Source: Verrucosispora sp. NA02020
Lineage (GTDB): Bacteria; Actinomycetota; Actinomycetes; Mycobacteriales; Micromonosporaceae
NCBI RefSeq assembly: GCF_013364215.1
Contig: NZ_CP054923.1
Span: forward strand, 2,852,001-2,916,000
DNA length: 64,000 bases
Direction: 5' to 3'
Shown here: positions 9,723 to 31,262 of the stretch, piece after piece
Numbering within the stretch: position 1 is the stretch's first letter
Layout: every line of letters begins with the position of its first letter
Program-made: the position numbers and the translations under genes
Notes under the pieces: generated by a model
The model's database searches: none
Told to the model about the DNA's origin: nothing
What the model saw: only the letters and a program-made list of their open reading frames with translations

Positions 9723-9881
9723 GGCCCAGAGTCAACCGAGAGTGACGACGCAGAACCATGCAGAAAGACCGGCAACTTCACCGTGAGCATGTGGCCAGTA
9801 ACACAACGCCAGCGCTGCTCCTACCGGAGCGTAATCACTAGCGTCGCTGGGGACGGCCGAACACACACCGGGGACGGGGCT

Positions 9882-11027: not shown

Positions 11028-11099
11028 CCCGGCTGCGGCCCACCGGTCCGCACGCACCCTGCGGCTCTGCACACCTGCGCCACACCGGGCCGCCGTAGC

Positions 11100-17000: not shown

Positions 17001-17184
17001 GGAGATCGCCGCCGTGCTGGTGGTCACCGAGAAGACGGTCGAGATGCACCTGTCCCACGTGTTCGTCAAACTCGGTGTCCGCAACCGGGTGCGGCTCGCT
17101 CGACGCCTGGATGCGATGGCGTCGAGCGGCCTGCCCTCCGCCGATGCGCTACCGGACCCGCCCCACCCCACGGGCGAGGACTGA
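14053..17184 (+). CDS. LAL-family (large ATP-binding LuxR) transcriptional regulator
   Basis: Predicted 1043-residue regulator. PLVGRDGELHRL leads into an AAA-type ATPase with Walker A GDPGIGKS (58-65) and Walker B LVVILDDLHRADDDT. A long TPR-like helical middle follows, and a C-terminal LuxR HTH (LAGMTRRERQVAELVREGLTNREIAAVL...KTVEMHLSHVFVKLGVRNRVRLARRL). LAL proteins are usual pathway-specific activators of actinobacterial secondary-metabolite clusters, and this gene sits at the edge of one. A Gly/Pro/Ser/Cys-rich stretch around residues 735-795 (bases ~16255-16425) breaks the helical pattern. Alternative starts are GTG 14056 and GTG 14077. It is convergent with acpS, 10 bases apart. Confidence 0.9.
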   Translation: MVGGEADGVSNASHGRTTIGRQPGRASDPLVGRDGELHRLDQAIGRLTDGAQLIEISGDPGIGKSHLLAELTHRCQRRSLPVLTGRVPPGGAVFPFGALIDALDDRLRTVRADAWGALPTHDARVLADIFPSFPYRTENGPAPPTVPHFRRLRAIRSMLEVLASTGPLVVILDDLHRADDDTIDALCYLVQSPPQAATLLAFGYRTRQAPPRLRGAAARTGTSLVRLPLTPLSPTAVRTLLADCVSDAESDELYRCSGGNPRYLWALLDGARASTHDLTPARGTAFPVTGTAPEPATAQPGRTYSAAETAIAAELDELSSQSRLAAAGAAVVGEVFDLPAVGVVAELVEETVRRTIDELAGADIVRHVPDTTRFRFRHPLVRHVVYHGSQPGWRLGAHARAAAALAGTPDEEVARAPHLALVATPDDATAPGTLRRAAAAVERDSPETAARWRQAALRLTSVAGSPPADRHLLLRQVATAYAAAGRPRHARDMLLAALRQPVATPPAERADLVIRCVRLCLSLGEPAPARDLLAEEVTPPDPSCRSSRVNLLLEQAFLELADGSAVAARAAAITALRLAQDDRPRTTEHIRVKAVLAAADGLTGAFVSAAATLTDVVPLLDATGDAELAAHPDAIYWIGWSEFALERYPDALRHLERVRASPTDRPARAARPGPDVVTLCDALLARTWILAITGRHTVAVGTAAMAADVAYRSGSPHLRQRAAILRRWVAAERAGNRPGPRGPGPADSAPGRSTRWCAGGCAAGTSGRPGDAIGGCTDLSCSPSAADSGGWSAMLTRLMLAELRLAGGDPRGCLDLLTTVPALTSLRGVDPGTRMVHQELVVRAAVAAGDVTAVTAAAVDEVAPATGTTRQHVPAEPLSGPTTATRPHGAVGLALLARAQLLVTEEPTAAAEMAAAAAAELAAAGLTPAANRARTLARPADRQGSRRGGASETRHRNGRAALAGMTRRERQVAELVREGLTNREIAAVLVVTEKTVEMHLSHVFVKLGVRNRVRLARRLDAMASSGLPSADALPDPPHPTGED

Positions 17185-17194
17185 GCCGCCCCGC

Positions 17195-17563
17195 TCACCA
17201 ACCGGCGGCCACCGCCGCCACCATGTCGTCGGAGTGCGTGATCGAGACGGTCAGGCCGGAGACACCCGCCTGCGCCGCCATCCGGGCGGCGGCCCCGGCC
17301 AGGGTGACCTGGGGTGCGCCACCGGGCGCCCGGGCCACCACGATCTCGGACGGTGCCACTCCTTCGAACAGGCCCGTCCCGAGCACCTTGAACACCGCTT
17401 CCTTGGCCGCGAACCGACCCGCGAGGAACTCGCGCCGCCGCCCGGGAGCCAACGTCGTGGCGTACTCGATCTCGGCGGCGGCGAAGGCGTACCGGGTGAA
17501 CCAGGCCCGGTCGCAGAGACGATCCAGCGCACCGAGCGGCAACAGGTCGATGCCGAGGCGCAT
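17195..17563 (-). CDS. acpS: holo-[acyl-carrier-protein] synthase (AcpS-type phosphopantetheinyl transferase)
   Basis: 122-residue enzyme that moves 4'-phosphopantetheine from CoA to an ACP serine. Diagnostic residues are Asp6 in GIDLLPL (Mg ligand), Glu55 in RFAAKEAVFKVLG (the W/F-xxKEAxxK motif) and the C-terminal SITHSDDMVAAVAA. Length is normal for AcpS. ATG 17563 overlaps the upstream acyl-CoA dehydrogenase stop (ATGA), so it is the last gene of the leftward biosynthetic operon. Its placement implies a dedicated activator of the ACP at 20353-20610, although it may also serve other carrier proteins. Confidence 0.93.
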   Translation of the reverse strand: MRLGIDLLPLGALDRLCDRAWFTRYAFAAAEIEYATTLAPGRRREFLAGRFAAKEAVFKVLGTGLFEGVAPSEIVVARAPGGAPQVTLAGAAARMAAQAGVSGLTVSITHSDDMVAAVAAGW

Positions 17564-18780
17564 CAGCGCACACCCTCCGGCCCGACGGCACCGGCGCCGC
17601 TCCCCTTCAGCAGTCCCTGGAAGACCGACAACAGGTGTACGTTGCCGGCGCCCTCCATGAACTCGAAGGCACGCACATCCCGATAGACCTTCTCCAGCCA
17701 GGGATCGTCGAGCAACGACGCCGGTCCCAGCAGTTCGGCGGCGAGCACCGTGGCGTCCTCGGCGACCCGGGCGGCCCCGGCCTTCGCCGCGGCGATGCGA
17801 TGGGGATCGATCAGGCCACCGTCGATGTCGGCGGCGATCCGGTGGATGAGTCGACGGATCGCCGCGATCCGGTCCTCGACGGCCGCCAACCGGTCCCCAC
17901 CGGCCCCACCGTCGCGTACCCCCTGCCCGCGTACGTGGTCGCAGACCGCCTGGGCGCAGCCCACCGCCATCGCGGCGATCCCGGGACGGGCGCGGTAGAA
18001 CACCTGTCGGGCCCCGTGCAGGCCACGCTGGGTGGGCCGCCGATGCTGACCCAGCAGGTTGCGGTCGGGAATCCGGACGTCCTCGAAACGCATCCGACTG
18101 ATCCGGGCACCACGCAGGCCGACCGACGGCAGAAGCTCGGCGCTGAAACCGGGGGACGAGGCCTCCACCAGCGCCGCCTCGATGCCCCACGGACCGGGCG
18201 CGCGCCGGCAGAACACCAGCCCCACCTGGCCCCGTGCGCCGTTGCCCACGTAGGTCTTCTCCCCGTTGAGCACCCAGCCGTCGCCGTCCGTCGCCGGCCG
18301 CAGCGTCGTCGTCAACTCGGTGGCGGCCGAACCCTTGGCCGGCTCGGTGACCGCGAAGAAGGTGTGGTCCGGCCGTGCGGCGAACCGACGGAACCAGCGG
18401 TCGGTCTGTTCCTCGTCGGCGAGCGCGTGGATGGCGTCGCTGGACAGCGCCGGTCCGGGACCGGCGAGCAGCACGTTCGGGTCGGCGTAGGAGAACCGTT
18501 CCCAGACGACGGCCTGCGCCAGCGACGTACCGCACACCGCCGCGACCTGCGGCGGCACGTCCAGTGCGGGCCAGTACCGGCGGGGAATGGAGAAGAACCG
18601 GTAGAGCAGGACACCGGGCAGATCGAGGTGGTCGTCGATGGCGTCCGGATCCTGGTCGAGCAGTTCGCCGAGCTTGCGGAACTCGCCCGACACCGACCAG
18701 CAGTGGCGGTCGAGCGCCCGCATCCGGTCGTCGCGCAGATCCGATCCGACCAGCGGGCCGCCGCGGTTCACCTCAGCCAT
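17563..18780 (-). CDS. acyl-CoA/acyl-ACP dehydrogenase (flavoprotein)
   Basis: Predicted 405-residue dehydrogenase. FAD/substrate motifs are FFAVTEPAKGSAATELTT and WVLNGEKTYVGNGARG in the middle beta domain. The catalytic base is Glu376 in FEFMEGAGNVH, matching the YEGT position of the family. Family members remove hydrogens across the alpha-beta bond of a thioester. ATG 18780 gives normal length. The next gene upstream ends inside this start and encodes a protein resembling only the C-terminal helical domain, so a mixed-subunit enzyme is likely. Context suggests an ACP-bound amino-acyl substrate rather than ordinary fatty acyl-CoA (inference). Confidence 0.88.
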   Translation of the reverse strand: MAEVNRGGPLVGSDLRDDRMRALDRHCWSVSGEFRKLGELLDQDPDAIDDHLDLPGVLLYRFFSIPRRYWPALDVPPQVAAVCGTSLAQAVVWERFSYADPNVLLAGPGPALSSDAIHALADEEQTDRWFRRFAARPDHTFFAVTEPAKGSAATELTTTLRPATDGDGWVLNGEKTYVGNGARGQVGLVFCRRAPGPWGIEAALVEASSPGFSAELLPSVGLRGARISRMRFEDVRIPDRNLLGQHRRPTQRGLHGARQVFYRARPGIAAMAVGCAQAVCDHVRGQGVRDGGAGGDRLAAVEDRIAAIRRLIHRIAADIDGGLIDPHRIAAAKAGAARVAEDATVLAAELLGPASLLDDPWLEKVYRDVRAFEFMEGAGNVHLLSVFQGLLKGSGAGAVGPEGVR

Positions 18781-19471
18781 CGCCCTGTCTCCTTCCCGAG
18801 TGCAGGTAGACGTTGCCGGCGACCTCGGCCAGATGCAGGTCCCCGGCCGGTCCGTCGACGAGGAAGCCACTGGCGCCGAGCAGCCGAAGCAGGTCGCGAC
18901 CGACGCCGACCAGACGGCGGTGGGTACGCCACCGGGCCGCCACGTCCTGGTCCCGACGCGCCGGCGGCGTCGCGTCCACCTCGGCGAGCCGGATCGCCAC
19001 CTCGGCGAGTTGGGCCTGCACGAGTTGTCTGGCCAGCAGGGTGGTGCCGGCGGAGGTGCGGGCACCCAGATGACGCAGGGTGTGCCGGAGCACCTCGTGC
19101 AGCAGCCGTCGGTGCAGGTCGAGAAGGCCGGTGGCGAACGCCTCGGCGACCGCCTGCGGCACCGGGACGATCGTCGTCGACCGCCCGTCGCCGACGGGGT
19201 CGGGGACCGTGGGGTGCGCCGACGGTGTGGCAGCACCGGAAGCGGCGCGGGACACCACGACACCGAACCGGGCCAGTGCACCGGGCGCAGCGGCGGGTAG
19301 CGCCGCCGGGGAGGCCACCACGTGCCCGGTGGGGGAGGGCACCGGGCCGGTCGGGGAGAGCCGGTGGTGCAACTCGTCCAGCGCGTCGGCGTACCACCGT
19401 GCGGGGGCAGGGGGCAGCGTGGTGTCCGGCACCACGGACCCGACATCGGCGGGTGCCCGGGGCGGTGTCAT
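18773..19471 (-). CDS. C-terminal-domain-only acyl-CoA dehydrogenase-like protein
   Basis: 232 residues. After a Pro/Ala-rich N-terminus (~1-90) comes a helical bundle (LLDLHRRLLHEVLRHTLRHLG...LVQAQLAEVAIRLAEVD). It ends in GASGFLVDGPAGDLHLAEVAGNVYLHSG, which aligns with the C-terminal end FEFMEGAGNVHLLS of its neighbour, including the Glu and the AGNV turn. The N-terminal and FAD-contacting beta domains of the family are missing. Start and stop overlap both neighbours (ATGA at 19468-19471; 8 bases at 18773-18780), so the two dehydrogenase genes are translationally coupled. Likely role: partner subunit in a heteromeric dehydrogenase. Independent catalysis seems unlikely. Confidence 0.65.
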   Translation of the reverse strand: MTPPRAPADVGSVVPDTTLPPAPARWYADALDELHHRLSPTGPVPSPTGHVVASPAALPAAAPGALARFGVVVSRAASGAATPSAHPTVPDPVGDGRSTTIVPVPQAVAEAFATGLLDLHRRLLHEVLRHTLRHLGARTSAGTTLLARQLVQAQLAEVAIRLAEVDATPPARRDQDVAARWRTHRRLVGVGRDLLRLLGASGFLVDGPAGDLHLAEVAGNVYLHSGRRQGDG

Positions 19472-20340
19472 GGTGCCTGCTCTCGGGTCGATGCGGAAAC
19501 GGATACGGCGGTCGCGTACTCCGGCGCGGTGCTCGCTCGTCGGCGCAGCAGACCGGCCTGGCTACGCCCGGTACGCGGGTCGGTGTCGCAGAGCACGAGC
19601 GTGCGGTACTCGTCGGCCCAGGCGCGATGCGACCGGGCCAACTCCCGCCAGACGCCGGTGCAGTAACTGCCGGCGTCGACCCGGTGGACCGGCAGCCCGA
19701 GGGCGGCCAGTGTGCCCGCGTCGACCCACGGGCCCGCCACCACCAGCGTCGAGTCCACGCCCGACCCGGTGGTCATCGCCCCGATCAGGCGTCCCAGCCC
19801 GGACGTGCTCGACACCGGCGCGGTACCCACGAACTCCCATCCGCCACCACCGCCGAAGACGAGCAGGGCACCGGAGTTGGTCAGCTCGTGGTCCGTCACG
19901 AAGGGATCGTGGTACGGCAGGCTGTTCTGCTCGCAGACGAAGAGCGCGAGGCTGGCGCACCGCCCCGACCGGGCGTACGCGTCCGCCACCTTCAACGCCG
20001 TGTACGGGGCACGTAACCCCTGCTCGGAAATGGCGAAGCTGTGGCTGCGATCGCCGAGCAGGTGGTTCACGTACGGGGTCACGTGCTTGAGCGACGACGG
20101 ATCCGGGATGCCGTAGGCGAAGATCAACAGGTCGGGGCTGTCGATCGGCAGCTCCCGCAGCAGGTCCTCGGCCAACTCGGTGAACCCGACGTTGGCCGCC
20201 TGCGCCAACCGCCCCGGATCCGGCCGTACCCCGAACGGGCGCAGGATGTCCCGCTGGATGGCGTCACGGTCGTCGTCGGTGGCCGGCGGCAGCCGGTCGC
20301 GGCGCACCAACGCGGTGGCCGAGGTCAGGGACAGCGGCAT
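19468..20340 (-). CDS. thiolase-fold (KAS III-like) protein lacking the catalytic cysteine
   Basis: Predicted 290 residues. The first thiolase half is readable: DSPDLLIFAYGIPDP corresponds to the strand and loop before the active site, and SFAISEQGLRAPYTALKVADAY occupies the place of the FabH-type motif SxxCxGxxxAL. Gly108 stands where the nucleophilic Cys should be. The second half (SYCTGVWRELARSHRAW) has no clear His or Asn motif and is shorter than in active KAS III (~330). It probably acts as a non-catalytic partner of the KAS III at 23349-24530, as PqsB does for PqsC. ATG 20340 is preferred (GGGAG six bases upstream); GTG 20352 is possible. Confidence 0.65.
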   Translation of the reverse strand: MPLSLTSATALVRRDRLPPATDDDRDAIQRDILRPFGVRPDPGRLAQAANVGFTELAEDLLRELPIDSPDLLIFAYGIPDPSSLKHVTPYVNHLLGDRSHSFAISEQGLRAPYTALKVADAYARSGRCASLALFVCEQNSLPYHDPFVTDHELTNSGALLVFGGGGGWEFVGTAPVSSTSGLGRLIGAMTTGSGVDSTLVVAGPWVDAGTLAALGLPVHRVDAGSYCTGVWRELARSHRAWADEYRTLVLCDTDPRTGRSQAGLLRRRASTAPEYATAVSVSASTREQAP

Positions 20341-20352
20341 GCTCACTCCCAC

Positions 20353-20610
20353 TCAGGCGTGATCGTCCAGGTTCGCGACCACGTAGTCGGCCACCGTGCC
20401 GATGGTCTTGAAGTCGGCGATCTCCAGCCGCTCCGGGTCGACGTCGATGCCGACGCCGTCCTCCAACGCCATCAGCAGTTCGAGCACGGAGGTCGAGTCG
20501 ACGTGCAGGTCCTCGAAGAGCCTCGTCTCCTCGGGCAGCCCGGAGATCGGGCGTTGCAGCACGTCACTGAGAGACTGCTCGATCTGCGAGACGACCTTGC
20601 TGCGGTCCAT
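20353..20610 (-). CDS. acyl carrier protein
   Basis: 85-residue acidic free-standing carrier protein. Helix 2 begins LHVDSTSVLELLMALEDGVGIDVD; the Ser of DST is the expected phosphopantetheine site (DSx, with Thr in place of the common Leu). The remaining helices (FKTIGTVADYVVANL) are normal. An AAAGGA Shine-Dalgarno lies six bases before ATG 20610. It lies between the decarboxylase and the thiolase-fold gene, with acpS in the same operon. It is the likely carrier on which an amino acid is loaded by the ATP-grasp enzyme, decarboxylated and modified, as BtrI does in butirosin biosynthesis. Confidence 0.92.
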   Translation of the reverse strand: MDRSKVVSQIEQSLSDVLQRPISGLPEETRLFEDLHVDSTSVLELLMALEDGVGIDVDPERLEIADFKTIGTVADYVVANLDDHA

Positions 20611-20658
20611 GACGGGTCCTTTCGGGTAGGCCGACCGGGGATGGCGGCAACGGGCGGA

Positions 20659-21957
20659 TCAGGAGGCGGGGAAGGACACCAGACGCTGCGATCGCAGCAG
20701 ATCGTCGACGGTGTCGCGGCTACGCACCAGGTGACCGACCCCGTCCACCACGAGCACCTCGGCCGGGTGCCCGTGACTGAGGAACAGCACCGGTGAGGCG
20801 CTGGGACCGTACGCGCCGGAGCGGCTGACCCCGAGCAGGTCACCGGGGCGTACCTCGGGCAGCCGGACCCGCTTGGCGATCACGTCGTTGGGGGTGCAGA
20901 GCGGCCCGGTGACGGTGTACACCTCGCTCGCGGAGGTGTCCGGCCGGGTCAACGACCGCACGGGGAAGTTCCGTTTGACGAAGCTGCCGAGGCCGACCGC
21001 CGCCATGTGGTGGTTGGTGCCGCCGTCGGCGACCACGAACCACTCACCACGGGACTGCTTGACGTAGCGGGCCCGCAGTACGTACGTCCCGGACCAGCCG
21101 ACCAGGTAACGCCCGAGTTCGGTGATGATCCGGGTGTCCGGGTACCGCGCCAGGAACTCGTCCACCGCCCGGTTCACCCCCTCGGCGGCGGCGGTCGCGT
21201 CGAGGTCGCTCTCGTTGTCGAAGTACGGAACGCCCCAGCCGCCGCCGATGTCCACCGTCTCCAGCGGTACGCCGAGTTCCCCGGCGAGGGACTCGGCCAC
21301 GCCCAGGACGCCCCGGGTGTTGTGCACGACGGTCTCCACGTCCAGGATCCGGGTTCCCAGATAGGCGTGTACCCCGATGACGCGTACCCGGTTCAGCGCG
21401 GTCACGGCGGCCTTCGCACCCCGCAGGATCTCCTCGTCGATGCCGAACTGGCGGGGCTTGCCGCCCATCGCCAGCCGCGAGCCGTGCGTCTCGAACTCCG
21501 GGTTGACCCGCAGGATCACCCGCGTCCCGGCGGCCTCCGGCAGGGCATCCAGCGCGGCCAGTTCGGCGAGGGACTCCACGACCACCGCGTGTGTCCCGCC
21601 CTCGGCGCAGCAGGCCCGCAACTCGTCGTCGGACTTGCCCGGTCCGAGGAAGATGAGGTCGTCCGCGCCGACCCCGGCCCGCCGGGCGGTGGTCAACTCG
21701 GCCAGGGAGGAGACCTCCAGCCCCGCGCCGAGCGACCGCAACAGGGCACACAGGCTGATGTTGGGGTTGGCCTTCATGGAGTAGAAGATGTCGATGCGCG
21801 GATCCAGGTCGGCACGCAGCCGCTCGAAGCGGCGCCGCAGGTGATCACCGTCGTAGACGTAGAGCGGTGTGCCGTACCGCTGCGCCAACTCGGCGATCAG
21901 GGCGGGATCGGTGACGATCTCGCCGGTGGCGTCGGCCGGTTCTGCTCCGTTGCTCAC
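20659..21957 (-). CDS. PLP-dependent decarboxylase, alanine-racemase fold (LysA/BtrK type)
   Basis: 432 residues. The N-terminal barrel carries the PLP Lys62 in FYSMKANPN, phosphate-binding VDIGGGWGVPY, and FGIDEEILRG. The C-terminal beta domain has VADGGTNHHMA, the catalytic-Cys motif TGPLCTPNDV and the closing SRSGAYGPSASP. This is the fold-type III family of diaminopimelate, ornithine and carboxynorspermidine decarboxylases. The GTNHHMA segment and the gene order with an ATP-grasp ligase and ACP point to the BtrK branch, which decarboxylates gamma-glutamyl-ACP to GABA-ACP. That substrate assignment is inference. GTG 21957 overlaps the ATP-grasp stop by four bases. Confidence 0.85.
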   Translation of the reverse strand: MSNGAEPADATGEIVTDPALIAELAQRYGTPLYVYDGDHLRRRFERLRADLDPRIDIFYSMKANPNISLCALLRSLGAGLEVSSLAELTTARRAGVGADDLIFLGPGKSDDELRACCAEGGTHAVVVESLAELAALDALPEAAGTRVILRVNPEFETHGSRLAMGGKPRQFGIDEEILRGAKAAVTALNRVRVIGVHAYLGTRILDVETVVHNTRGVLGVAESLAGELGVPLETVDIGGGWGVPYFDNESDLDATAAAEGVNRAVDEFLARYPDTRIITELGRYLVGWSGTYVLRARYVKQSRGEWFVVADGGTNHHMAAVGLGSFVKRNFPVRSLTRPDTSASEVYTVTGPLCTPNDVIAKRVRLPEVRPGDLLGVSRSGAYGPSASPVLFLSHGHPAEVLVVDGVGHLVRSRDTVDDLLRSQRLVSFPAS

Positions 21958-23339
21958 GGGGAGACCTCCTGGCTGGGGCGGGTGGCGGTGAGTCGGGTGG
22001 CGAGCGCCCCGCGCAGGGCATCGTCCAGGGCCCTCAGACGATCGGCGTCCGTGGTGACGAGCAGGGCGTACAACCGGCCGTGGAACGGTGGCGGCCGGTC
22101 GGCGTCGGCGTTGACGGTGCCGAAGCAGGTGACGACGACCCGGTCGGGACCGGCCGGGTCGACCAGCGTGGCGAGCGTCCGGTCGACGTCGGCGAACGAC
22201 ACCGGCGCGGTGAGCGTCAGCGGGTACTGCCGGGCCAGCGCGACCTGCCCGGGTGCCTGGCACAGCTCGGCCAGGCTGCCCTGGTAGGTCGACATGTTGA
22301 GCCGGGCGTTGATCTCCAGCACCGGGTACACCACGCCGTCGAGGTCGACGATGGCGTCCACCCCGACCACTCCGGTGTAACCGTCGTCGCGGAGCCGGGC
22401 ACCGACCAGCCGGGCGGCGCGGTCGATCTCGGCATGCTGGGCGTCGGTCAGCGTGGCGGGCATGATGTGTCCCTGGTGGACGCCACCGTCGGTGAGCGCC
22501 TGCTTGACGAAGTCGAGCCGGATCCCGCCGTCCCGGGCCACGGTCACCTGGTAGTTGAGGTCGTACCGTTTCGGCAACCATTCCTCGACCACGACGTGCA
22601 GCCGGTCGTCTCCGCTGTGTTCGGCCCGCCGGCGCACCATCCGCAGGATCCGGTCCGCCTTGCGGGGCGAGTCCAGGACCAGCAGTCCCTTGCCGGACAC
22701 CCCGTAGGAGTCCTTCACGACGATCCGCCGGCCCGCCGCGAGGGCGGGACGGTACCGCTCCAGGACCGTGGCCAGCTCGTCGCAGGTCTCGCACTCGTCG
22801 CCCGGCACGACGCGCAGCCCGGCGGCGGCGGTCAGCCGGCGCCCGTAGATCTTGCCGTTGACCCGTTCGAAGGTCGCCGCGTCCGGCACCGCCAGCGGCA
22901 CACCGCAGCTCTCGGCCAGCTTCTGTTCCAGGTCCGTGGTGGCCATCGGAAGCAGCCGCGCGCCGGCGGCACCGAGCGCCGCGAGCCGGGCCAGCAGCAC
23001 CGGCGAGTCGAGAACGTCCTCAGTGGTGGAACGGTCGGCGGAGACGTTCTCCGGCACGACGATCTCGGGCACCGGCAGACCGGTCCGGTCCAGGTAGGCG
23101 CGGTACTGCGGATCCAGCGGGTACTTGCAGACGAGCACGTCGTCGGCGCCGGCGAGCAGGACGCCCAGTTCCTCCATCCGCCGCACCACGTTCGTGCCGG
23201 TGGCGAATCCCGGGTTCGGCAGCCCGACGTGCTGGCGGGCCCAGCGGTGCTCGGCCTCGAAGTTGCAGATCAGGATCAGCCGGCCGGCGGGATCGCCGAG
23301 CAGGCGCTGTTTCAGCGAGCGAAGGTAGCCCGTGTCCAC
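21954..23339 (-). CDS. ATP-grasp ligase, probable amino acid:ACP ligase (BtrJ-like)
   Basis: 461 residues starting at GTG 23339. A pre-ATP-grasp domain (LILICNFEAEHRWARQ, FATGTNVVRRM) leads into the ATP-grasp fold: RIVVKDSYGVSGKGLLVLD for the nucleotide-binding lysine and loop, VVVEEWLPKRYDLNYQV for the adenine-contacting acid, and VYPVLEINARLNMSTYQG with the Mg-binding Glu-Asn pair. Such enzymes join a carboxylate to an amine or thiol through an acyl phosphate. Next to an ACP and a BtrK-type decarboxylase the likely reaction is loading of glutamate, or another amino acid, onto the ACP thiol. ADP-forming peptide ligation is the alternative, since BtrJ does both. Confidence 0.82.
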   Translation of the reverse strand: MDTGYLRSLKQRLLGDPAGRLILICNFEAEHRWARQHVGLPNPGFATGTNVVRRMEELGVLLAGADDVLVCKYPLDPQYRAYLDRTGLPVPEIVVPENVSADRSTTEDVLDSPVLLARLAALGAAGARLLPMATTDLEQKLAESCGVPLAVPDAATFERVNGKIYGRRLTAAAGLRVVPGDECETCDELATVLERYRPALAAGRRIVVKDSYGVSGKGLLVLDSPRKADRILRMVRRRAEHSGDDRLHVVVEEWLPKRYDLNYQVTVARDGGIRLDFVKQALTDGGVHQGHIMPATLTDAQHAEIDRAARLVGARLRDDGYTGVVGVDAIVDLDGVVYPVLEINARLNMSTYQGSLAELCQAPGQVALARQYPLTLTAPVSFADVDRTLATLVDPAGPDRVVVTCFGTVNADADRPPPFHGRLYALLVTTDADRLRALDDALRGALATRLTATRPSQEVSP

Positions 23340-23348
23340 GTCGTCCTC

Positions 23349-24530
23349 TCAGTACTCGATGACCATGGCGGCGTAGCTGGAGCCGATCCCGACCGAGGTG
23401 AGCAGGTACGACTCGCCCTCGCGGAGCAGGCCGCGCTCGCGCATCGAGACCAGGTTCAGGAAGGGGTCGGAGCAGTTGCAGTGGCCGTAGCGGGGGATGT
23501 TGTCCAGGAACACCCGCCGCCGGTCCAGGCCCACCTGGGCGCAGAGTCGCAGCCAGAGCGAGGCGTTGACGTTGTGCGGGATCACCATGGCGATGTCCGA
23601 CAGCTCCTTTCCGGCCTGCGCGAGCGCGTCCGACATCGCGGTCCAGAGGTGGGTGTTGTAGGTGTCGCCGAAACGACGGAGCTGCTCGGCGGACATCCGG
23701 AACCCGTCGGCGAACTCGCCCTCGGTGCGGGCCGCGTAGGAGAGCACCCGGCTGCCCGCGCCGTCGGGTGACCGGCCGGGACCGGCGGCGAGCCCACCGG
23801 AGCGGTACCCGTCCGGCGTGTCCAGGCCGACCAGCAGGGCCGTCGACGCCTCGCCGGTGATCGATACGTGCAGGACGTACCGCAGCACACTGTTGAACGC
23901 CTTCTCGCCGGTGACCACGAGGGCCTTGGCCATCGGATCGCCGTCGGCACGCAGCAGCTCACCGGCGATGTCGACGGCGGCGAGTCCACTGGCACAGAAC
24001 TGCTGGGTCACCGCGAACGCGTCGGTTCCGGACAGGCCGAGCCGTTTCCGGAGCTCGTCGGCGGCGAGGACGTGCGACGGAGCGGGATCGGGCAGGGTGT
24101 GCGCGTAGAGCAGGTAACGGACGACGGTGGGATCGGGCAGCTCGCGCAGCGCCGCGCCGGCTGCCGGTACGAGCAGGTCGAACAGGTCACCGTCGGGGTC
24201 CGCCCGGACCTCCGCCATGCCTCGGATCCGACGTAGCACCTTCGTCTGGTAGCGGTTGAGCCCGCAGGCCGCCCCGATCTCCTCGACCGTCCACGACCGG
24301 GCGGGCGTGAACGCCTCGACCCGGTGCAGGACGGTGGCCGCCCGCACGAGGTCGGACGGCGGTGCGATCGCGCCACGCCGGCCCTCGTCCCGCGCCCGAT
24401 CGACGGTGTCGCCCCGCAGGACCGTCGCCTGCGGGGTCGGGGGCACCCCAGGTGCCCCGACGGCACGTGTCGTGACGGGACCCGACCGGACCAGGTCCGG
24501 CCGGTGCGTACGGGAGAAGGTGTCGGCCAC
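23349..24530 (-). CDS. KAS III-like condensing enzyme with a Cys/His active site and Asn replaced by His
   Basis: Predicted 393 residues from GTG 24530, which has an excellent GGAGG five bases upstream (24536-24540). Nucleophile Cys179 is in FAVTQQFCASGLAAVD and His319 in MVIPHNVNASLW. The third residue, Asn in YGNTSxAS of FabH, is replaced: the motif reads IPRYGHCNCSDPF, with His350 at that position. The first ~60 residues are a Pro/Arg-rich extension absent from FabH. Loss of the Asn usually weakens malonyl decarboxylation, as in PqsC, so the enzyme may acylate a non-malonyl nucleophile. First gene of the leftward biosynthetic operon; the ATP-grasp gene starts nine bases on. Confidence 0.82.
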   Translation of the reverse strand: MADTFSRTHRPDLVRSGPVTTRAVGAPGVPPTPQATVLRGDTVDRARDEGRRGAIAPPSDLVRAATVLHRVEAFTPARSWTVEEIGAACGLNRYQTKVLRRIRGMAEVRADPDGDLFDLLVPAAGAALRELPDPTVVRYLLYAHTLPDPAPSHVLAADELRKRLGLSGTDAFAVTQQFCASGLAAVDIAGELLRADGDPMAKALVVTGEKAFNSVLRYVLHVSITGEASTALLVGLDTPDGYRSGGLAAGPGRSPDGAGSRVLSYAARTEGEFADGFRMSAEQLRRFGDTYNTHLWTAMSDALAQAGKELSDIAMVIPHNVNASLWLRLCAQVGLDRRRVFLDNIPRYGHCNCSDPFLNLVSMRERGLLREGESYLLTSVGIGSSYAAMVIEY

Positions 24531-24907
24531 TCGTTCCTCCGGATTCGCGGGGCGGCCCGCCCGGGCGGCGTCGACGAGGCGGTGCACCGTTGGCGCGCGA
24601 TGTCGGCGCGGATGCCTGGACCGAGGCGACTCGCTGGAGGGTCCGGCCCGCCGGTCGGCAGCGCCGGCCGCCCGGCCACACGGCAGACGATAGGCAGATC
24701 CAGATGCTTCGGTGAATTGGGGAAACCCCTGTAATGATCTGATAAACGTCAATGCCGAAGGTGGGGATTTCCCGAAGTGACTCCAGGGTCCGGGCGGATC
24801 TAGCGTTGGCCGTTAGGTGCCATCCGGATATTGGCTTATGGCGGTTACCTGCCATTTCGTCGACCGGGCCGGGAATGGGGTGGCGGCCGGTCCAAAGGAG
24901 AGAAACG
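24531..24907. promoter_or_regulatory. divergent promoter region of the biosynthetic cluster with GGGGA-type palindromes
   Basis: This 377-base gap separates the two divergent biosynthetic operons and contains no supported gene. Its right half is markedly less GC-rich than the surroundings. Two symmetric elements are visible: GGGGAAACCCC (24719-24729) and GGGATTTCCC (24764-24773, extended GTGGGGATTTCCCGAA at 24761-24776). The second matches the GGGAWWTCCC core of the PAS-LuxR (PimM-type) operator as I remember it, with 14 of 16 positions overall. Farther right are imperfect direct repeats GTTAGGTGCCAT (24812-24823) and GTTACCTGCCAT (24844-24855), 32 bases apart. These are candidate sites for the cluster's LuxR-type LAL regulator. 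AAAGGAGA at 24895-24902 is the ribosome binding site for the rightward operon. Confidence 0.55.
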
Positions 24908-26704
24908 ATGGGAATCCGACCTATCGACCTGGTGCCCCCACCCGAGGACGCGCCGCCTGCGGTGAGGCTGACGCACGTGGACCAGCTGCGCGTCCGGTTC
25001 ACCGGTGAGCGGGACGGCGAAGGACCGATCACCCTCGGACAGGCGAACATGCTCAGCTGGATCGCCAAGGAGAAGCCGTACGGGCGGTTCGCCGCCGGCC
25101 CCCTGGAACTGCCACCCGGTGCCTCGATGGTCGACGTCACGGCCGCCGTCGAGGTGCTGATGGCCCGGCACGAGGCACTGCGCACCCTCTTCCCCGCCGA
25201 CGGGCGGACCCAGCAGGTGCTGCGCTCCGGCGAACTGGCCGTCGACGTGTTCACCGCCGACGAGGAAGCCGACACGCAGGTGCTCGTGAACGAACTGATC
25301 CGCATCCTGCGCAGCGAGGAGTTCGACCTGTCCCAGGAGCTGCCGATCCGGGTCGCGGTGACCGCCGTGGACGGCGTACCCACCGCCGCGGCCGTGGTCT
25401 ACTCGCATGTCGTGGTCGACCTGCCCAGCATGGTGATGCTGGCCAGACAGTTCACCGAACTCGCCGCCGAGCCCACCCGCCGACAGGTCGGCCCGCACGG
25501 GCACCAGCCCCTCGACCAGGCCGCAGCCGAGCGCTCCGAGCGGGGACGACGCCGGGCCGAGGAGGCGCTCCGCTACTGGGAACGGATCTTCACCACCATC
25601 CCGCAGAACCTCTACGCGGTGCCACCGGCACCCGACGGGCCGGGTGGATCCTCATCCTCCTGGCTCTGGTCACGCGCCGCCGCCCTGGCCCTGCCGCACA
25701 TCGCCGCCCGCACCGGTGCCAGCACGTCGATGGCGGTGCTGGCCGCCGTCTGCGCGGTCCTGAGCCACCGCACCGGCCACCGCCAGATCGCGATGCCGAC
25801 CCTGTGCAGCAACCGTTACGAGCGCCGGCTGCACGACTACATCGGCCCGCTGGCCACCGACAGCCTGGTGTCGGTGGAGGTCACCTGCGCCGGCTTCGAC
25901 GAACTCATCCACCGGGCCGGCACCGCCGTCCTGCGCGCCAACCGGTATCCGGCGGGCCAACCCCAGGAGATGGACCGGCTGGCCCGGATCACCGACGAGC
26001 GCGGCATCCACGTCGCCCGCCGCTGCACCTTCAACGACTCCAGCGCCGCCATGGGGTCCGGACCCCCGACACCGGCCGTGACCGACACGACGGCGACGGA
26101 CCCGACCGAGGCGCGCCGGGCACTGACCGAGTCGACCGTGGTGCCACGGTCGTGGGGGGAGATCCGCGCGCTGCTCGCCTTCCGCCTGCTGGACAAAGAG
26201 GGGCAGATGATCCTCGGCGTGCTGACCGCCGACCGCCACCGCATCACCGACGCCGAGAGCGCACTGCTGCTGACGGCCGTCGAGCGGCTGCTCGTCGAAG
26301 CGGCGGCGGGTGACGTCGACCTGGACCGGCTCGGCGAGGTGACCGCAGTGGCACCCCTGACCCGGGATGCCGACTGGCGCTTCGTCGACTCCAACTGGAT
26401 CCAACTCTCCCAGACCCAGCACCTGCTCGACGACGCGCTGCCCACCGCCGGCGCCCGGGTCTTCGCCGTACCCGACGACCACGGCCGTCCGGAACTGGTG
26501 GCGTACCTGGCCAACGGCGACGCGACCACGCCGGGCCGAGCCCACCGGGCCTGCCTCGAACGGCTACCCGGCCGGGACACCGCGATGGCCCCGCGACGGT
26601 ACGTCGTCTGCGCCCGCGCGCCGCACGATCCGGCCGACCTGTCGCAGTGGCGACGCATGCCGGTGCGGCACACCGGAGACGGGCGGGAAGGTACGCCACA
26701 GTGA
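24908..26704 (+). CDS. stand-alone NRPS condensation-domain protein with degenerate adenylation C-subdomain
   Basis: 598 residues from ATG 24908 with a strong AAAGGAGA. Residues ~35-480 are a condensation-domain fold: LGQANMLSWIAKEKP at the N-terminus, RHEALRTLFPADG, and the active-site motif reading SHVVVDL (Ser166-His167...Asp171) instead of HHxxxDG, so the general-base His and structural Asp remain. Residues ~515-585 (ARVFAVPDDHGRPELVAYL...LERLPGRD...RRYVVCARAPHDP) look like the small C-terminal subdomain of an adenylation domain whose catalytic Lys region (NGK) is absent. No adenylation core or carrier domain is present. It probably forms an amide or ester between a carrier-bound acyl group and a free acceptor. 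Confidence 0.82.
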   Translation: MGIRPIDLVPPPEDAPPAVRLTHVDQLRVRFTGERDGEGPITLGQANMLSWIAKEKPYGRFAAGPLELPPGASMVDVTAAVEVLMARHEALRTLFPADGRTQQVLRSGELAVDVFTADEEADTQVLVNELIRILRSEEFDLSQELPIRVAVTAVDGVPTAAAVVYSHVVVDLPSMVMLARQFTELAAEPTRRQVGPHGHQPLDQAAAERSERGRRRAEEALRYWERIFTTIPQNLYAVPPAPDGPGGSSSSWLWSRAAALALPHIAARTGASTSMAVLAAVCAVLSHRTGHRQIAMPTLCSNRYERRLHDYIGPLATDSLVSVEVTCAGFDELIHRAGTAVLRANRYPAGQPQEMDRLARITDERGIHVARRCTFNDSSAAMGSGPPTPAVTDTTATDPTEARRALTESTVVPRSWGEIRALLAFRLLDKEGQMILGVLTADRHRITDAESALLLTAVERLLVEAAAGDVDLDRLGEVTAVAPLTRDADWRFVDSNWIQLSQTQHLLDDALPTAGARVFAVPDDHGRPELVAYLANGDATTPGRAHRACLERLPGRDTAMAPRRYVVCARAPHDPADLSQWRRMPVRHTGDGREGTPQ

Positions 26705-27609
26705 CCACCTCCCACGACGGGGACGCGATCGTGCTGTCCGGGCTGCGCAAGTCCTACCACGGACGACCGGCGGTCGACGGGATCGACTTCACCGTCCGTC
26801 GAGGCGAGGTCTTCGCCCTGCTCGGACCGAACGGCGCCGGCAAGACCACCACCGTGGAGATCCTGGCCGGGCACCGCCGCCGCGACGGCGGTGAGGTCCG
26901 GGTACTCGGCGCCGACCCCGCCGACGGTAGACCGGAGTGGAAGGCCCGGATCGGCGTCGTCCTGCAACGCGCCGACGACCTCACCTACTCCAGCGTCCTC
27001 TCGGTACGCGACTGGGTCCGATCGGTCGCCGCCTACTACCCGACGCCCCGCCCCCCGGACGAGGTGATCGAGCTGGTCGGGCTCTCCCGCCAGGCGCGGG
27101 TACGCGCCTCCGCGCTCTCCGGCGGTCAACGTCGCCGGCTCGACGTGGCCCTCGGCATCGTCGGCCGACCCGAGCTGCTCTTCCTGGACGAACCCACCAC
27201 CGGATTCGACCCGGAGGCCCGGGTCCGCTTCTGGTCACTGCTGACCCAGCTCGCCCACGACGGCACCACGATCCTGCTCACCACCCACTACCTGGAGGAA
27301 GCCGAACGCCTCGCGGACCGGGTCGCGGTGGTGGCCGCAGGACGCATCGTCGCGATCGCCACGCCACAGACCCTCGGCGGACGGGCCAGTGCCACCGCCA
27401 CGGTGCGGTGGACCGGACCCGACGGAACACAGAGCCGGCGTACCGGTGATCCGACCGCGGTCGTGCGCGAACTCGCCCAGCGCTTCGGCGGCGCCGTCCC
27501 CGATCTGGTCGTCCAGCGCCCCAGCCTCGAGGACGTGTACCTGGAGATGATCGGGCAGTCGCCGACGCGCGCGGACACCCGCCAACCGGTGACCGGAGGA
27601 CCGGCATGA
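26701..27609 (+). CDS. ABC exporter ATP-binding protein, DrrA type
   Basis: 302-residue ATPase with Walker A LGPNGAGKTTT, Q-loop VLQRADD, signature LSGGQRRRLDVALGI, Walker B LLFLDEPTTGFD and switch LLTTHYLEEAERLADRV. The C-terminal extension with PSLEDVYLEMIG is typical of drug and polyketide exporters (DrrA/CcmA-like). GTG 26701 lies within the condensation-protein stop, and its own stop overlaps the permease ATG. It couples production to export of, or self-resistance to, the cluster product. Confidence 0.93.
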   Translation: MTTSHDGDAIVLSGLRKSYHGRPAVDGIDFTVRRGEVFALLGPNGAGKTTTVEILAGHRRRDGGEVRVLGADPADGRPEWKARIGVVLQRADDLTYSSVLSVRDWVRSVAAYYPTPRPPDEVIELVGLSRQARVRASALSGGQRRRLDVALGIVGRPELLFLDEPTTGFDPEARVRFWSLLTQLAHDGTTILLTTHYLEEAERLADRVAVVAAGRIVAIATPQTLGGRASATATVRWTGPDGTQSRRTGDPTAVVRELAQRFGGAVPDLVVQRPSLEDVYLEMIGQSPTRADTRQPVTGGPA

Positions 27610-28493
27610 CCACCGTCAGCGAGGGCGCCCGCCCGACACCCGAACACCCGGCCATGACCGCGCCGACCGGCGGACACCGTGCACCGGCCCCCCGCATGCC
27701 GAGACTGCTCCGGGTGGTGGCCGCCCGCACCCGCGTCGAGTTCCTCTCCCTCGTCCGCGAACGCTCGGCGATGGTCTTCACCTTCGCCTTCCCGCTCACC
27801 CTGCTGGTCATCTTCGGCTCGGCGCTGCACGGCCAACCGATCGCCGCCGGGGTCGTCTACGAGCAGTACTTCGTCGCCGGCATGATCGCCGCCGGACTGT
27901 TCGGATGCAGCTTCCAGAACCTCGCCATCGTCATCCCCCTGGAACGGGACATCGGCGGCCTGAAACGACTGGCCGGCACACCCATGCCGAAGTCCGCCTA
28001 CTTCGCCGGCAAGATCGTGATAGTGGCGTTCACCGCGCTGGTGCAGAGCGTGCTGCTGATCGGGATCGGCGTGATCTTCTACGACCTGACCCTGCCCACC
28101 ACCGTCGGCCCCTGGCTCACCTTCCTCTGGGTGGCCGCACTCGGCACGATCGCCTGCACCCTGCTCGGCATCGGCGTGGCCGGAATCGTGAAGAACGGCC
28201 GGACCGCTCCGGCGATCGTGTCGCCCCTGGCGACCGTCCTCCAGTTCGTCTCCGGGGTGTTCTTCGTCTTCGCCTCCCTCCCCACCTGGATGCAGAGCAT
28301 CGGCACGATCTTCCCGCTCAAGTGGATGACACAAGGGATGAGATCGGTCTTCCTGCCCGACTCCTTCGCCGCGCACGAGGTGGCCGGCGACTGGGAACAC
28401 GGGCGGATCGCGCTGGTGCTCGGCGCCTGGTGCCTGATCGGACTCGTGGTGGCGGTACGCACCTTCCGCTGGCGCAACCGCGCCGACGGCTGA
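27606..28493 (+). CDS. ABC-2 type exporter permease, DrrB type
   Basis: 295 residues. A ~30-residue cytoplasmic tail is followed by VEFLSLVRERSAMVFTFAFPLTLLVIFG and about six transmembrane helices of the ABC-2 fold, including FVAGMIAAGLFGCSFQNLAI and KRLAGTPMPKSAYFAGKIVIV, the usual cytoplasmic motif region. The late hydrophobic block LQFVSGVFFVFASLPTWMQ is characteristic of DrrB proteins. It overlaps the ATPase gene by four bases and precedes the carbamoyltransferase by 28 bases. The two gene products form the exporter. Confidence 0.92.
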   Translation: MTTVSEGARPTPEHPAMTAPTGGHRAPAPRMPRLLRVVAARTRVEFLSLVRERSAMVFTFAFPLTLLVIFGSALHGQPIAAGVVYEQYFVAGMIAAGLFGCSFQNLAIVIPLERDIGGLKRLAGTPMPKSAYFAGKIVIVAFTALVQSVLLIGIGVIFYDLTLPTTVGPWLTFLWVAALGTIACTLLGIGVAGIVKNGRTAPAIVSPLATVLQFVSGVFFVFASLPTWMQSIGTIFPLKWMTQGMRSVFLPDSFAAHEVAGDWEHGRIALVLGAWCLIGLVVAVRTFRWRNRADG

Positions 28494-28521
28494 CCATGAA
28501 CTGCACCCCTGAGGAGAAGAG

Positions 28522-30339
28522 ATGACGGGTCAGCGGCGGGCGGTCGTGCTCGGCTACAGCGGGCTGCACGGATCGGCGGAACTCAAACAGTCCTGCTTCC
28601 CGGGCCTCGACGAGCGGGAGGCGCGCCTGTTCCAGGGACTGGACTCCGCCGCCGCCCTCGTCGTCGACGGCGAACTGGTCGCCGCGGTGCAGCAGGAGCG
28701 GTACTCCGGGATCAAGTTCGACCACGCGTTCCCGGCCGACGCGATGGCGAGCTGCCTGACGATCGCCGGTCTGGACGCCACCGACGTCGACGCGGTGGCC
28801 CACAACTTCGACCACTCCCACATGCGGGTCTTCGCCGAGGGCGAGGAGTACGCGCGACGCCGCTACCGCGAGATCCTCGACCCGGCCCGACAGACCGAGC
28901 TGCTGCACCGGTTCATGCCCGCCCTGGCCCGGCACCGGGTGACACCGGTGTCCCACCACCACGCGCACGCCCTCACCGCCGCCGTCCCCTCCGGCTACGA
29001 CGACGCACTGGTCGTGGTCGTCGACGGCATGGGGGAGTTGTACGCCATCAGCGTCTACGCATGGCGGCACGGACAGCTGACCCGCCTGGCCGCACTGGAC
29101 TACCGCGCCAGCCTCGGCCTCCTCTACGCGATCCTCACCATGCACCTGGGCTACTGGCCCAACAGCGACGAGTACAAGGTGATGGCACTCGCCGCGATGG
29201 GCGACCCGGCGCGGTACCGCGACGTGCTGGCCGACGCGGTGCACTGCCAACCGGACGGACGGCTGGACGTGCCGCTGCTGCGACTCAACCGGGAGCCGTG
29301 GGCCCGGGAGACCTTCGCGACCTCGCGGGACTGGCTCACCGAGCGGGCCTGCCCGCAACGACGCGCCGGCGAGGAACTCACCCGGGAGCACATCGACCTC
29401 GCCAGCGCCGCCCAGGAACGCGTGGAACAGGCCCTGACCCACCTGCTGTCGTACTGGGTACGGCGGACCGGGCTGCGGCGGGTGGCGTTCGCCGGCGGCG
29501 TCGCGCTGAACTGCGTCGCGATCGGCAAACTGGCCGCCTCCGGCCTGGTCGACTCCGTGTACGTGCAACCGGCCGCCGGCGACGAGGGAACGGCGGTCGG
29601 CGCCGCACTCGCCCTGGCCGGTCCGGCCGCCACCGCCGCCCACTACCCGTCGATGACCTACCTCGGCCCGGACGTCACCGAGGACGGACCGCCGGCCGAC
29701 CAACCGTACTGGTCCGTGCCGGTGGGCGAGGGCGTCGCCGAGGTGGCGGTCGCACGGCTGCTGACGGAGGGCAGGATCGTCGGCTGGGCCCAGGGTCGGC
29801 TGGAGTTCGGCCCGAGAGCACTGGGCAACCGCAGCATCCTGGCCGACCCGAGGGACCGTGGCGCGCGGGAGCGGGTCAACGCCGCGGTGAAGTTCCGCGA
29901 GGAGTTCCGCCCGCTCGCCCCGGCGGTCAAGGCGGAGCGAGCCGACGACTGGTTCGTCATACCGCCGGGGACGAACATGCGGCACATGACGGTGGCCGTG
30001 CCGGTACGACCACCGATGGCGCAGCGGATCGCGGCGGTCGTGCACGACGACGGCACCGCTCGGGTGCAGGCCGTCCATCAGACGGACAACCCACGGTTCT
30101 GGCGGATCCTGGACGAGTTCGAGCGGCTGACCGGGACACCGGTGCTGATGAACACGTCGCTGAACGTGAAGGGCCAGCCCACCGCCCGGGCGGGCGCGGA
30201 GGCGTACCGCACCTTCGACTCGTCGAGACTGGACGTCCTCGTCCTCGGCGACCGGCTCTACGCCAAACCCGACGCGGTGGCGGCGGTCGAACGGGCGGTG
30301 ACCCACGCCGCGCGACACACCGTGCTCAAGGTGCGATAG
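28522..30339 (+). CDS. O-carbamoyltransferase, NodU/CmcH/TobZ family
   Basis: 605 residues with a GAGGAGA ribosome site upstream of ATG 28522. The N-terminal YrdC/Kae1-like domain has the metal/ATP motifs SHHHAHALTAAVPSG and VVVVDGMGE, with GGVALNCVAIGKLAASG and PAAGDEGTAVGAALAL further on. The C-terminal carbamoyltransferase part shows EFGPRALGNRSILADPRD, KFREEFRPLAPAV and LMNTSLNVKGQP. These enzymes make carbamoyl-adenylate from carbamoyl phosphate and ATP and transfer the carbamoyl group to a hydroxyl (sometimes an amine). Last gene of the rightward operon; it predicts a carbamate on the final product, or an early carbamoylated intermediate. Confidence 0.93.
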   Translation: MTGQRRAVVLGYSGLHGSAELKQSCFPGLDEREARLFQGLDSAAALVVDGELVAAVQQERYSGIKFDHAFPADAMASCLTIAGLDATDVDAVAHNFDHSHMRVFAEGEEYARRRYREILDPARQTELLHRFMPALARHRVTPVSHHHAHALTAAVPSGYDDALVVVVDGMGELYAISVYAWRHGQLTRLAALDYRASLGLLYAILTMHLGYWPNSDEYKVMALAAMGDPARYRDVLADAVHCQPDGRLDVPLLRLNREPWARETFATSRDWLTERACPQRRAGEELTREHIDLASAAQERVEQALTHLLSYWVRRTGLRRVAFAGGVALNCVAIGKLAASGLVDSVYVQPAAGDEGTAVGAALALAGPAATAAHYPSMTYLGPDVTEDGPPADQPYWSVPVGEGVAEVAVARLLTEGRIVGWAQGRLEFGPRALGNRSILADPRDRGARERVNAAVKFREEFRPLAPAVKAERADDWFVIPPGTNMRHMTVAVPVRPPMAQRIAAVVHDDGTARVQAVHQTDNPRFWRILDEFERLTGTPVLMNTSLNVKGQPTARAGAEAYRTFDSSRLDVLVLGDRLYAKPDAVAAVERAVTHAARHTVLKVR

Positions 30340-30605: not shown

Positions 30606-31262
30606 ATGGCCGACAGCCGTGACATGTACGTCGTGCACAGCCTCTTCAGGCGCGAGTTCCCGGCCGCTGCGGCCCTGGTCCGGACAGTGGCTGCGGATGA
30701 CGCGCCGACCACCGCCCGTGTCGCCGACCACGTGCTGCTGCTCACCGGCGCGTTGCACACGCATCACACCGGTGAGGACACGCATGTCTGGCCGAAGTTG
30801 CTGCAACGCGGTCCGGACGAGATCGCGCCGCTGGTCCAGACCATGGAGAGTCAGCACGAGAGCCTGCACGCGGCACTGGCCGACGTGGAGGAGCGGGCGA
30901 CCGTGTGGCGCTCGACCGCGACTGAGGCTGACCGGGAAGCGCTGGCCGCAGCCCTCGACGCGTTGATCGCGCCGATGTCGGCACACCTGGACGCCGAGGA
31001 GGCCCACGTGCTGACGTTGATCGACAAACACCTGACCGACGAGGAGTGGGCCGAAGCCGGGAAACACGGGCTGGCCTCGGCGCGGAAGAGCCAGCTGCCG
31101 ATGATCTTCGGCATGCTGCTGCACGACGCCAGGCCCGAGCACACCGAGAGCCTCAGAGCGGTGATCCCGGGCCCGGTCTGGTTCGTGCTCTCCCGCCTGG
31201 GCCCGGTGGCCTACGGCAGGTACGCCCGGCGGCTGGGCCTCGACCGGGTGGGCGCCGCCTGA
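30606..31262 (+). CDS. hemerythrin HHE-domain protein
   Basis: 218 residues. Four-helix hemerythrin-like cation-binding domain with ligands in VVHSLFRREF, LHTHHTGEDTHVWP (HxxxE), ESQHESLH and SAHLDAEEAHVL, sufficient for a di-iron site. The ~70-residue C-terminal tail (PMIFGMLLHDARPEHTESLRAVIPGPVWFVL) is common in actinobacterial members. ATG 30606 follows an AAGAAGGA site. Family proteins sense or store oxygen, NO or peroxide; no partner gene indicates which. The 266-base gap before it holds only its promoter region, with nothing I can name. Confidence 0.9.
   Translation: MADSRDMYVVHSLFRREFPAAAALVRTVAADDAPTTARVADHVLLLTGALHTHHTGEDTHVWPKLLQRGPDEIAPLVQTMESQHESLHAALADVEERATVWRSTATEADREALAAALDALIAPMSAHLDAEEAHVLTLIDKHLTDEEWAEAGKHGLASARKSQLPMIFGMLLHDARPEHTESLRAVIPGPVWFVLSRLGPVAYGRYARRLGLDRVGAA

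Follow-up and report, generated by a model that had tools for sequence, protein, structure and literature searches.

A gene cluster at positions 17195-30339 of a 64,000-nucleotide stretch of DNA from Verrucosispora sp. NA02020 (the window; C1:2852001-2916000 of the 7.28 Mb genome) is predicted to be a dehydro-beta-alanine (Dba, 3-aminoacrylate) cassette that makes a small carbamoylated enamide. From the protein families and by analogy with described pathways, we put the probability of this reading at about 0.62. By the same analogy, the cluster appears to use the logic by which the bolagladins and AFC-BC11 build Dba on an acyl carrier protein (ACP), with another loader, and is best regarded as a variant and not a plain member of that group. 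An earlier note on this DNA had described two divergent operons around a stand-alone ACP, and the translations, open reading frame starts and codon-position GC supported the full gene set; every protein it had named was present. The minus-strand operon (17195-24530) encodes, in order of transcription, a ketoacyl-ACP synthase III (KAS III)-like protein, an ATP-grasp ligase, a pyridoxal phosphate (PLP)-dependent decarboxylase, the ACP, a pseudo-KAS III (KSx), a half-size dehydrogenase (ACADc), an acyl-CoA dehydrogenase (ACAD) and an AcpS-type phosphopantetheinyl transferase. The plus-strand operon (24908-30339) encodes a condensation protein, the ATPase and permease of an ATP-binding cassette (ABC) exporter, and a carbamoyltransferase. 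Neighbouring cluster genes mostly overlapped or lay a few dozen bases apart. No multidomain nonribosomal peptide synthetase (NRPS) or polyketide synthase modules were found among the cluster genes scanned, only one stand-alone condensation protein and one ACP, and the description of the cluster as compact and free of modular enzymes held.

In the proposed pathway, AcpS would prime the ACP, and the ATP-grasp ligase would use ATP to join the side-chain carboxylate of L-aspartate to the carrier, giving isoaspartyl-ACP. The BtrK-like PLP enzyme would take off the alpha-carboxylate to leave beta-alanyl-ACP, and the KAS III/KSx pair would take up an acyl group on its Cys from a thioester of CoA or ACP and pass it to the beta-amine to form N-acyl-beta-alanyl-ACP. 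ACAD and the half-size ACADc would oxidise this intermediate to the enamide N-acyl-Dba-ACP, and the free-standing condensation protein would couple the acyl-ACP to a soluble amine and so release the amide. The carbamoyltransferase would O-carbamoylate a hydroxyl, and the ABC transporter would export the product. Acylation was placed before desaturation because an unprotected dehydro-beta-alanine thioester has been argued to be unstable (PMC12186527).

The fold-type III PLP decarboxylase (20659..21957; PF02784 and PF00278) had two BtrK entries as its closest solved structures (E 5e-94 and 8e-94), and the best diaminopimelate decarboxylase followed at 7e-49. The stand-alone ACP of 85 residues (20353..20610; PF00550, E 2e-9) kept its Ser in 38 of 38 family rows, and the AcpS-type transferase (17195..17563) matched PF01648 at E 3e-12. 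A free-standing ACP together with a BtrK-like PLP decarboxylase is also found in ACP-based Dba pathways of the bolagladin/AFC type, and the bolagladin decarboxylase has likewise been described as BtrK-like (PMC7756342). These genes supported the earlier proposal that a carrier-bound amino acid is decarboxylated. An adenylation-domain (A-domain) loader of the BolO/AfcQ type was not in the cluster, and the ATP-grasp ligase (21954..23339; PreAtp-grasp PF18604 and PF02786), a predicted amino acid-to-ACP loader that is syntenic in relatives, would take its place. The solved-structure matches of the ATP-grasp protein were carboxylases only.

The catalytic triad of FabH has Asn at its third position. 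The KAS III-like acyltransferase of the window (23349..24530, with the start most likely at 24530; C-terminal domain PF08541) has a Cys-His-His active site instead, and among 49 family rows, which include two second-KAS III rows and three loci repeating a contig, both the Cys and the His at the FabH Asn position were present in all 49. The middle His was present in 39 rows and was otherwise N (6), S (1) or T (1) in Paenibacillaceae and Y (2) in loci L022 and L023. KSx (19468..20340) gave no Pfam or NCBIfam match at E 0.01. Its AlphaFold2 model (mean pLDDT 90) matched FabH and OleA structures (Foldseek E 4e-12, TM about 0.6), and its family profile aligned with the neighbouring KAS III family with an hhalign probability of 96 and an E value of 2e-9, against 0.1-0.6% for three control pairs. 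All 42 KSx rows, a few of which are copies of one contig, have Gly in place of the Cys, and at least 113 KSx relatives were found, none with a precomputed Pfam domain. Model, profile alignment and family rows all agreed with the dead thiolase-fold protein that had been read from the sequence before.

Both of the dehydrogenase-type proteins claimed earlier were present, one of them as a half-protein of 232 residues. ACAD (17563..18780; PF00441 and PF02770), the predicted N-acyl-beta-alanyl-ACP desaturase, keeps the MEG and TEP motifs. ACADc (18773..19471), its putative partner, carries only the C-terminal, helical acyl-CoA dehydrogenase domain (PF00441, E 1e-5). The AlphaFold2 model of ACADc (pLDDT 84) was mainly a helical bundle, and its best Foldseek match was a short-chain acyl-CoA dehydrogenase at probability 1.00 but an E value of only 0.035. 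The model makes it likely, although not proven, that ACADc is an acyl-CoA dehydrogenase-type half-protein.

The condensation and carbamoyltransferase families expected for the last steps were confirmed in the plus-strand operon. The free-standing condensation protein (24908..26704, with the start most likely at 24908; PF00668, E 2e-21) belongs to a family with SHxxxD in 25 of 25 rows and PF00668 in 16 of 16 members scanned. It has a condensation domain with HxxxD and without an attached adenylation or thiolation domain, which is the architecture of a stand-alone amide synthase; VibH is the condensation amide synthase for comparison. The C-terminal extension of the protein is conserved and had no Pfam match in the 16 members scanned, and a by-eye likeness to a worn AMP-binding C-terminal domain was rejected on that scan. 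The ABC exporter ATPase (26701..27609; PF00005) and the ABC-2 exporter permease (27606..28493; PF01061) precede the carbamoyltransferase (28522..30339; PF02543 and PF16861, Carbam_trans_N and Carbam_trans_C). The nearest solved relatives of the latter were NovN, GdmN and TobZ, with homology over nearly the full length. NovN and GdmN are O-carbamoyltransferases, and the window protein is predicted to be one as well.

Eight regions in which a condensation-protein relative lies apart from any strong ATP-grasp match were compared. One (L127) proved to contain the cassette, and six others offered no clear clue as to which amine is the acceptor. In the remaining region, L123 (Micromonosporaceae), the neighbours of the condensation-protein relative include an AMP-ligase-like protein, a BtrK-like decarboxylase (41%), an ABC ATPase and a reading frame of 94 residues. 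An ATP-grasp match for L123 was not among the matches listed, and the chemistry of this region is perhaps the same, with a different loader.

Among published pathways, the nearest in logic that we found runs from aspartate through beta-alanyl-ACP to N-acyl-dehydro-beta-alanine. For the bolagladins, it has been proposed that Asp is loaded on a free ACP and decarboxylated by a BtrK-like enzyme, that a KAS III homologue then N-acylates the product and that an acyl-CoA dehydrogenase desaturates it. The decarboxylase and dehydrogenase genes were deleted: loss of bolN abolished production and beta-alanine did not rescue it, and loss of bolQ gave the beta-alanine analogues (PMC7756342). The window shares with this route (BolO/BolC/BolN/BolM/BolP/BolQ) the free ACP, a BtrK-like PLP decarboxylase, two KAS III homologues and an acyl-CoA dehydrogenase, and the N-acyl-Dba thioester of the bolagladin route is the intermediate proposed here. 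The bolagladin system differs in its A-domain loader BolO, in a unit that primes an NRPS and in BolM/BolP with Ser/Thr in place of Cys (PMC7756342), whereas the window has the ATP-grasp loader, the Cys-His-His KAS III, the half-size dehydrogenase, the condensation protein and the carbamoyltransferase. In vitro work on AFC-BC11 (AfcQ/AfcK/AfcP/AfcL/AfcE) has shown that Asp is loaded and then decarboxylated while on the carrier, and that the KAS III-like AfcL carries out the transfer (PMC12186527). This system resembles the window in its one carrier protein, its lack of a modular NRPS and its KAS III-like acyltransferase, but it has an iterative A-domain loader, a Cys/His/Asp triad, a fatty acyl-AMP ligase and no condensation domains. 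Dba has also been reported in the olenamidonins (PMC11204786). In butirosin biosynthesis (BtrI/BtrJ/BtrK), which the earlier note had taken as precedent, an ACP-bound amino acid is also decarboxylated by a PLP enzyme, with BtrK as the nearest solved homologue of the window enzyme, but that system makes GABA-ACP (GABA, gamma-aminobutyrate) for an aminoglycoside. No paper on the present gene set was found in the open-access literature; subscription papers, supplements and MIBiG lie beyond that search.

Chance assembly of the cluster was ruled out by synteny in relatives. One scan of genome contigs with the ATP-grasp protein gave 44 loci, all with gene calls; families were formed by label propagation, and truncated or mis-called genes were missed. 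ATP-grasp was present in 43 loci, the PLP enzyme in 42, KAS III in 39, KSx in 34, the ACP in 32, AcpS in 28, ACAD in 24, ACADc in 23, the condensation protein in 14, an AurF-like protein in 13, a LAL-type regulator in 13 and the carbamoyltransferase in 4. The run ATP-grasp-PLP-ACP-KSx was contiguous in 32 of the 44, and tblastn located the complete window set in six other loci (L010, L101, L103, L020, L021 and L024), so the conserved synteny whose absence had been named earlier as a refutation was found. In L010 (Plantactinospora alkalitolerans), L101 and L103 (same genus label), the carbamoyltransferase was 77-78% and the ATP-grasp protein 70-71% identical to those of the window; in L020 (Catenulispora), L021 and L024 (both Actinacidiphila), the carbamoyltransferase lies downstream of AcpS. 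In the gene strings compared, L010, L020, L021 and L024 had no flanking family in common with the window. Of 354 Micromonosporaceae genomes, the window's own included, 49 had an ATP-grasp match with an E value of 1e-60 or lower.

The cassette occurred in several settings. The window type, with condensation protein and carbamoyltransferase, stands beside a type with two condensation proteins and no carbamoyltransferase (L011-L014, L016, L044, L108), a nitronate type with an AurF-like oxygenase (PF11583) and a second ACP (13 of 44 loci), a lipid type with a fatty acyl-AMP ligase, large dehydrogenases, a second ACP and a P450 (L066/L067 in the window's own genome, L119, L120), a cassette beside an NRPS in Streptomyces decoyicus (L009), and forms without ACAD and ACADc (for example L022, L023, L029, L038 and L039). 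A class II aminoacyl-tRNA synthetase (aaRS)-like protein and an LCM methyltransferase were each present in 12 of the 13 nitronate-type loci, and L043 had neither. These loci include S. achromogenes (L035) and S. albireticuli (L036), the latter of which we take to be a producer of enteromycin, and enteromycin itself to have a 3-aminoacrylic acid half. For enteromycin carboxamide, papers that cite He and Ryan 2021 describe carrier-bound glycine together with a diiron oxygenase and a methyltransferase (PMC9967187, PMC11035981, PMC12183544), and loci with its reported enzyme types (doi 10.1038/s41557-021-00656-8) carry the KAS III-ATP-grasp-PLP-ACP-KSx cassette. The window differs from this type in that no AurF-like oxygenase, aaRS-like ligase, second ACP or LCM methyltransferase was found among its cluster genes scanned. 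Within the open-access literature searched, which leaves MIBiG aside, the earlier statement that no known product has these genes holds for the set as a whole and does not extend to the core, which is common to clusters with enteromycin-type nitronate enzymes.

A tree of the ATP-grasp protein was built from 63 rows. L052 (distant, partial) and the copies L067, L068 and L070 were left out, as were L102, L104-L107 and L109 as copies of included loci, and for L040 no gene had been called. Long branches drew a warning from the tool, chiefly for one L069 row and the Bacillota rows. The nitronate type formed one clade (100/99), and the window grouped with three Plantactinospora-type rows (100/98). 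The carbamoyltransferase type did not form one clade, as L020, L021 and L024 shared a 21-row group with the nitronate type and other rows (94/95, a support that falls short of the tool's star). This split speaks against a simple story.

Three further loci groups deserve mention. A proteobacterium, Telmatospirillum siberiense (L043), combines the cassette with an AurF-like oxygenase plus a second ACP, and its occurrence there suggests that the cassette has crossed between phyla. The lipid-type stretch is present twice in the genome that contains the window (L066, C1:262001-282000; L067, C1:411601-431600). The two copies are 100% identical over 19,987 aligned bases and lie about 149.6 kb from each other, either a recent duplication or an assembly artefact; the ATP-grasp protein of these copies is 46% identical to that of the window. 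In Paenibacillaceae (L046-L051 and L053), distant relatives of the ATP-grasp protein, PLP enzyme and KAS III stand in a long gene row next to small ACP-like, acyl-AMP ligase-like, methyltransferase-like and KAS II-like proteins, as read from the L047 translations, and in our reading this row probably belongs to a different pathway.

Several observations weigh against a Dba cassette. The proposal is sequence-based, and sequence does not decide between Asp and Glu as the substrate; BtrK itself acts on glutamyl-ACP. The acyl donor is the weakest point of the mechanism, with no acyl-activating enzyme found either in the cluster or in the genes common to the full-set relatives, and iteration like that of AFC-BC11 may be one way out. 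The published KAS III homologues differ from the Cys-His-His enzyme of the window, with Ser or Thr in BolM/BolP and Cys/His/Asp in AfcL/O, and the middle His is itself absent from 10 of the 49 rows. ACADc had no Foldseek match under E 0.001, and an hhalign comparison with ACAD, for which the ACAD file also contained unrelated large dehydrogenases, was not significant. ACAD and ACADc were called in only 24 and 23 of the 44 loci, and three of the 13 nitronate-type loci (L037, L042 and L043) lacked both in the stretch compared (L027 is cut by a contig end). The proposed link between enteromycin and Dba is tentative. The accessible text of PMC7756342 names only the enamidonins as other Dba products and not enteromycin, that of the review PMC10880069 does not name enteromycin among Dba/3-aminoacrylate products, and akazaoxime, a compound classed with enteromycin, is assembled from Gly, Leu and propionate.

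The precedent of the earlier note corresponds to a route in which Glu would be loaded via its gamma-carboxylate, decarboxylated to GABA-ACP and, after N-acylation, desaturated to yield a 4-aminocrotonyl unit. In its favour, BtrK, the closest solved homologue of the PLP enzyme, decarboxylates glutamyl-ACP, but BtrK likeness has also been claimed for the bolagladin decarboxylase (PMC7756342), and the published pathways with KAS III and an acyl-CoA dehydrogenase use aspartate (PMC7756342, PMC12186527); we consider glutamate unlikely. Several Asp units might also be loaded iteratively, as in AFC-BC11, to form an oligo-beta-alanine or oligo-Dba that is capped and released by the condensation protein. 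ATP-grasp ligases form amide bonds, and an acyl-activating gene would no longer be needed. AfcQ, moreover, iterates with a single carrier protein (PMC12186527). However, the sequence offers no sign of iterative loading, and the acyl-activating genes or second ACP of the relatives look like donors of a different acyl group, which leaves iteration a rather unlikely explanation.

The remaining alternatives concern KAS III and the carbamoyltransferase. KAS III could extend the aminoacyl-ACP with a malonyl unit by a C-C bond, and the resulting short amino-polyketide would then be oxidised by the dehydrogenases. The KAS III fold fits this, and extension is the usual KAS III reaction, but the idea is weakened by the His found for the FabH-triad Asn in 49 of 49 rows, and the cluster has one ACP only and no ketoreductase among the genes scanned. 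Because of this His and of a partner without Cys, desaturation was favoured over extension; the earlier note had allowed either, and the desaturated product, with ACAD to make it, is the part that we keep, extension being in our estimate improbable. Equally improbable, we think, is a carbamoyltransferase that acts on an amine and not a hydroxyl to give a ureidoacrylate or ureidopropionate. A hydroxylated partner has no obvious source in the cluster, but NovN, GdmN and TobZ, the nearest solved relatives, are O-carbamoyltransferases, and four related cassette types dispense with the enzyme altogether.

The region between the two operons contains two palindromes of the G-run/C-run type (24719..24774), GGGGAAACCCC at 24719 and GGGGATTTCCCG at 24763. 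The divergent KAS III-condensation arrangement was present in 19 of 30 loci examined, and the gap held at least one box of this pattern in 13 of the 19 (the window, L010, L101, L103, L011-L014, L016, L044, L108, L018 and L033), 7 of these 13 being close relatives. The gaps of L017, L020, L021, L024, L028 and L111 had no box. The window as a whole contained 3 boxes, equal to the expectation from first-order Markov shuffles (mean 3.1 of 30 shuffles); the boxes are no more frequent than by chance, and therefore only their position and recurrence are notable. The palindromes are candidate operators, and our guess is that the LAL-type LuxR regulator may act through them. This gene (14077..17184, start uncertain, plus strand; AAA_16 and GerE) converges on the AcpS gene, and LAL matches lay near the cassette in the full-set relatives. 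The earlier note was right that a LAL regulator stands at the edge, but the gene lies outside the range given for the cluster there. Seven flanking genes were scanned with Pfam (8220-9557, 9789-11027, 11100-13409, 30606-31262, 32296-32877, 32944-33954 and 35024-36259), and an acyl-activating gene in the near flanks was rejected, as none was of that kind. The matches were a CBM2 protein, two NB-ARC/NACHT-type regulators, a hemerythrin, a TetR protein and a SpoIIE phosphatase, and one gene had no match. The two regulators (9789-13409) are helix-turn-helix proteins with NB-ARC/NACHT-type ATPase domains, one with TPR repeats, and lie beside the LAL gene just outside the cluster.

A broader proposal, which we offer tentatively and with more doubt than belief, is that the cluster represents an undescribed NRPS-free class of carbamoylated N-acyl-dehydro-beta-alanine amides built on a single ACP. 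Such a class would combine an ATP-grasp loader with a Cys-His-His KAS III that is obligately paired with an inactive twin, and with a dehydrogenase in two parts, the second of which comprises just a C-terminal half-fold. The cassette would then be a mobile enamide module, reused in nitronate, lipid, NRPS and condensation/carbamoyl products, with two versions in the window's genome. If the Dba reading is right, it makes testable the reaction of the Cys-His-His KAS III, the reason for the company of its inactive twin and the role of the half-size dehydrogenase partner. The signature of ATP-grasp ligase, BtrK-like decarboxylase, ACP and pseudo-KAS III would then mark clusters without the modular enzymes used in genome mining, and would predict a rare enamide unit in their products.

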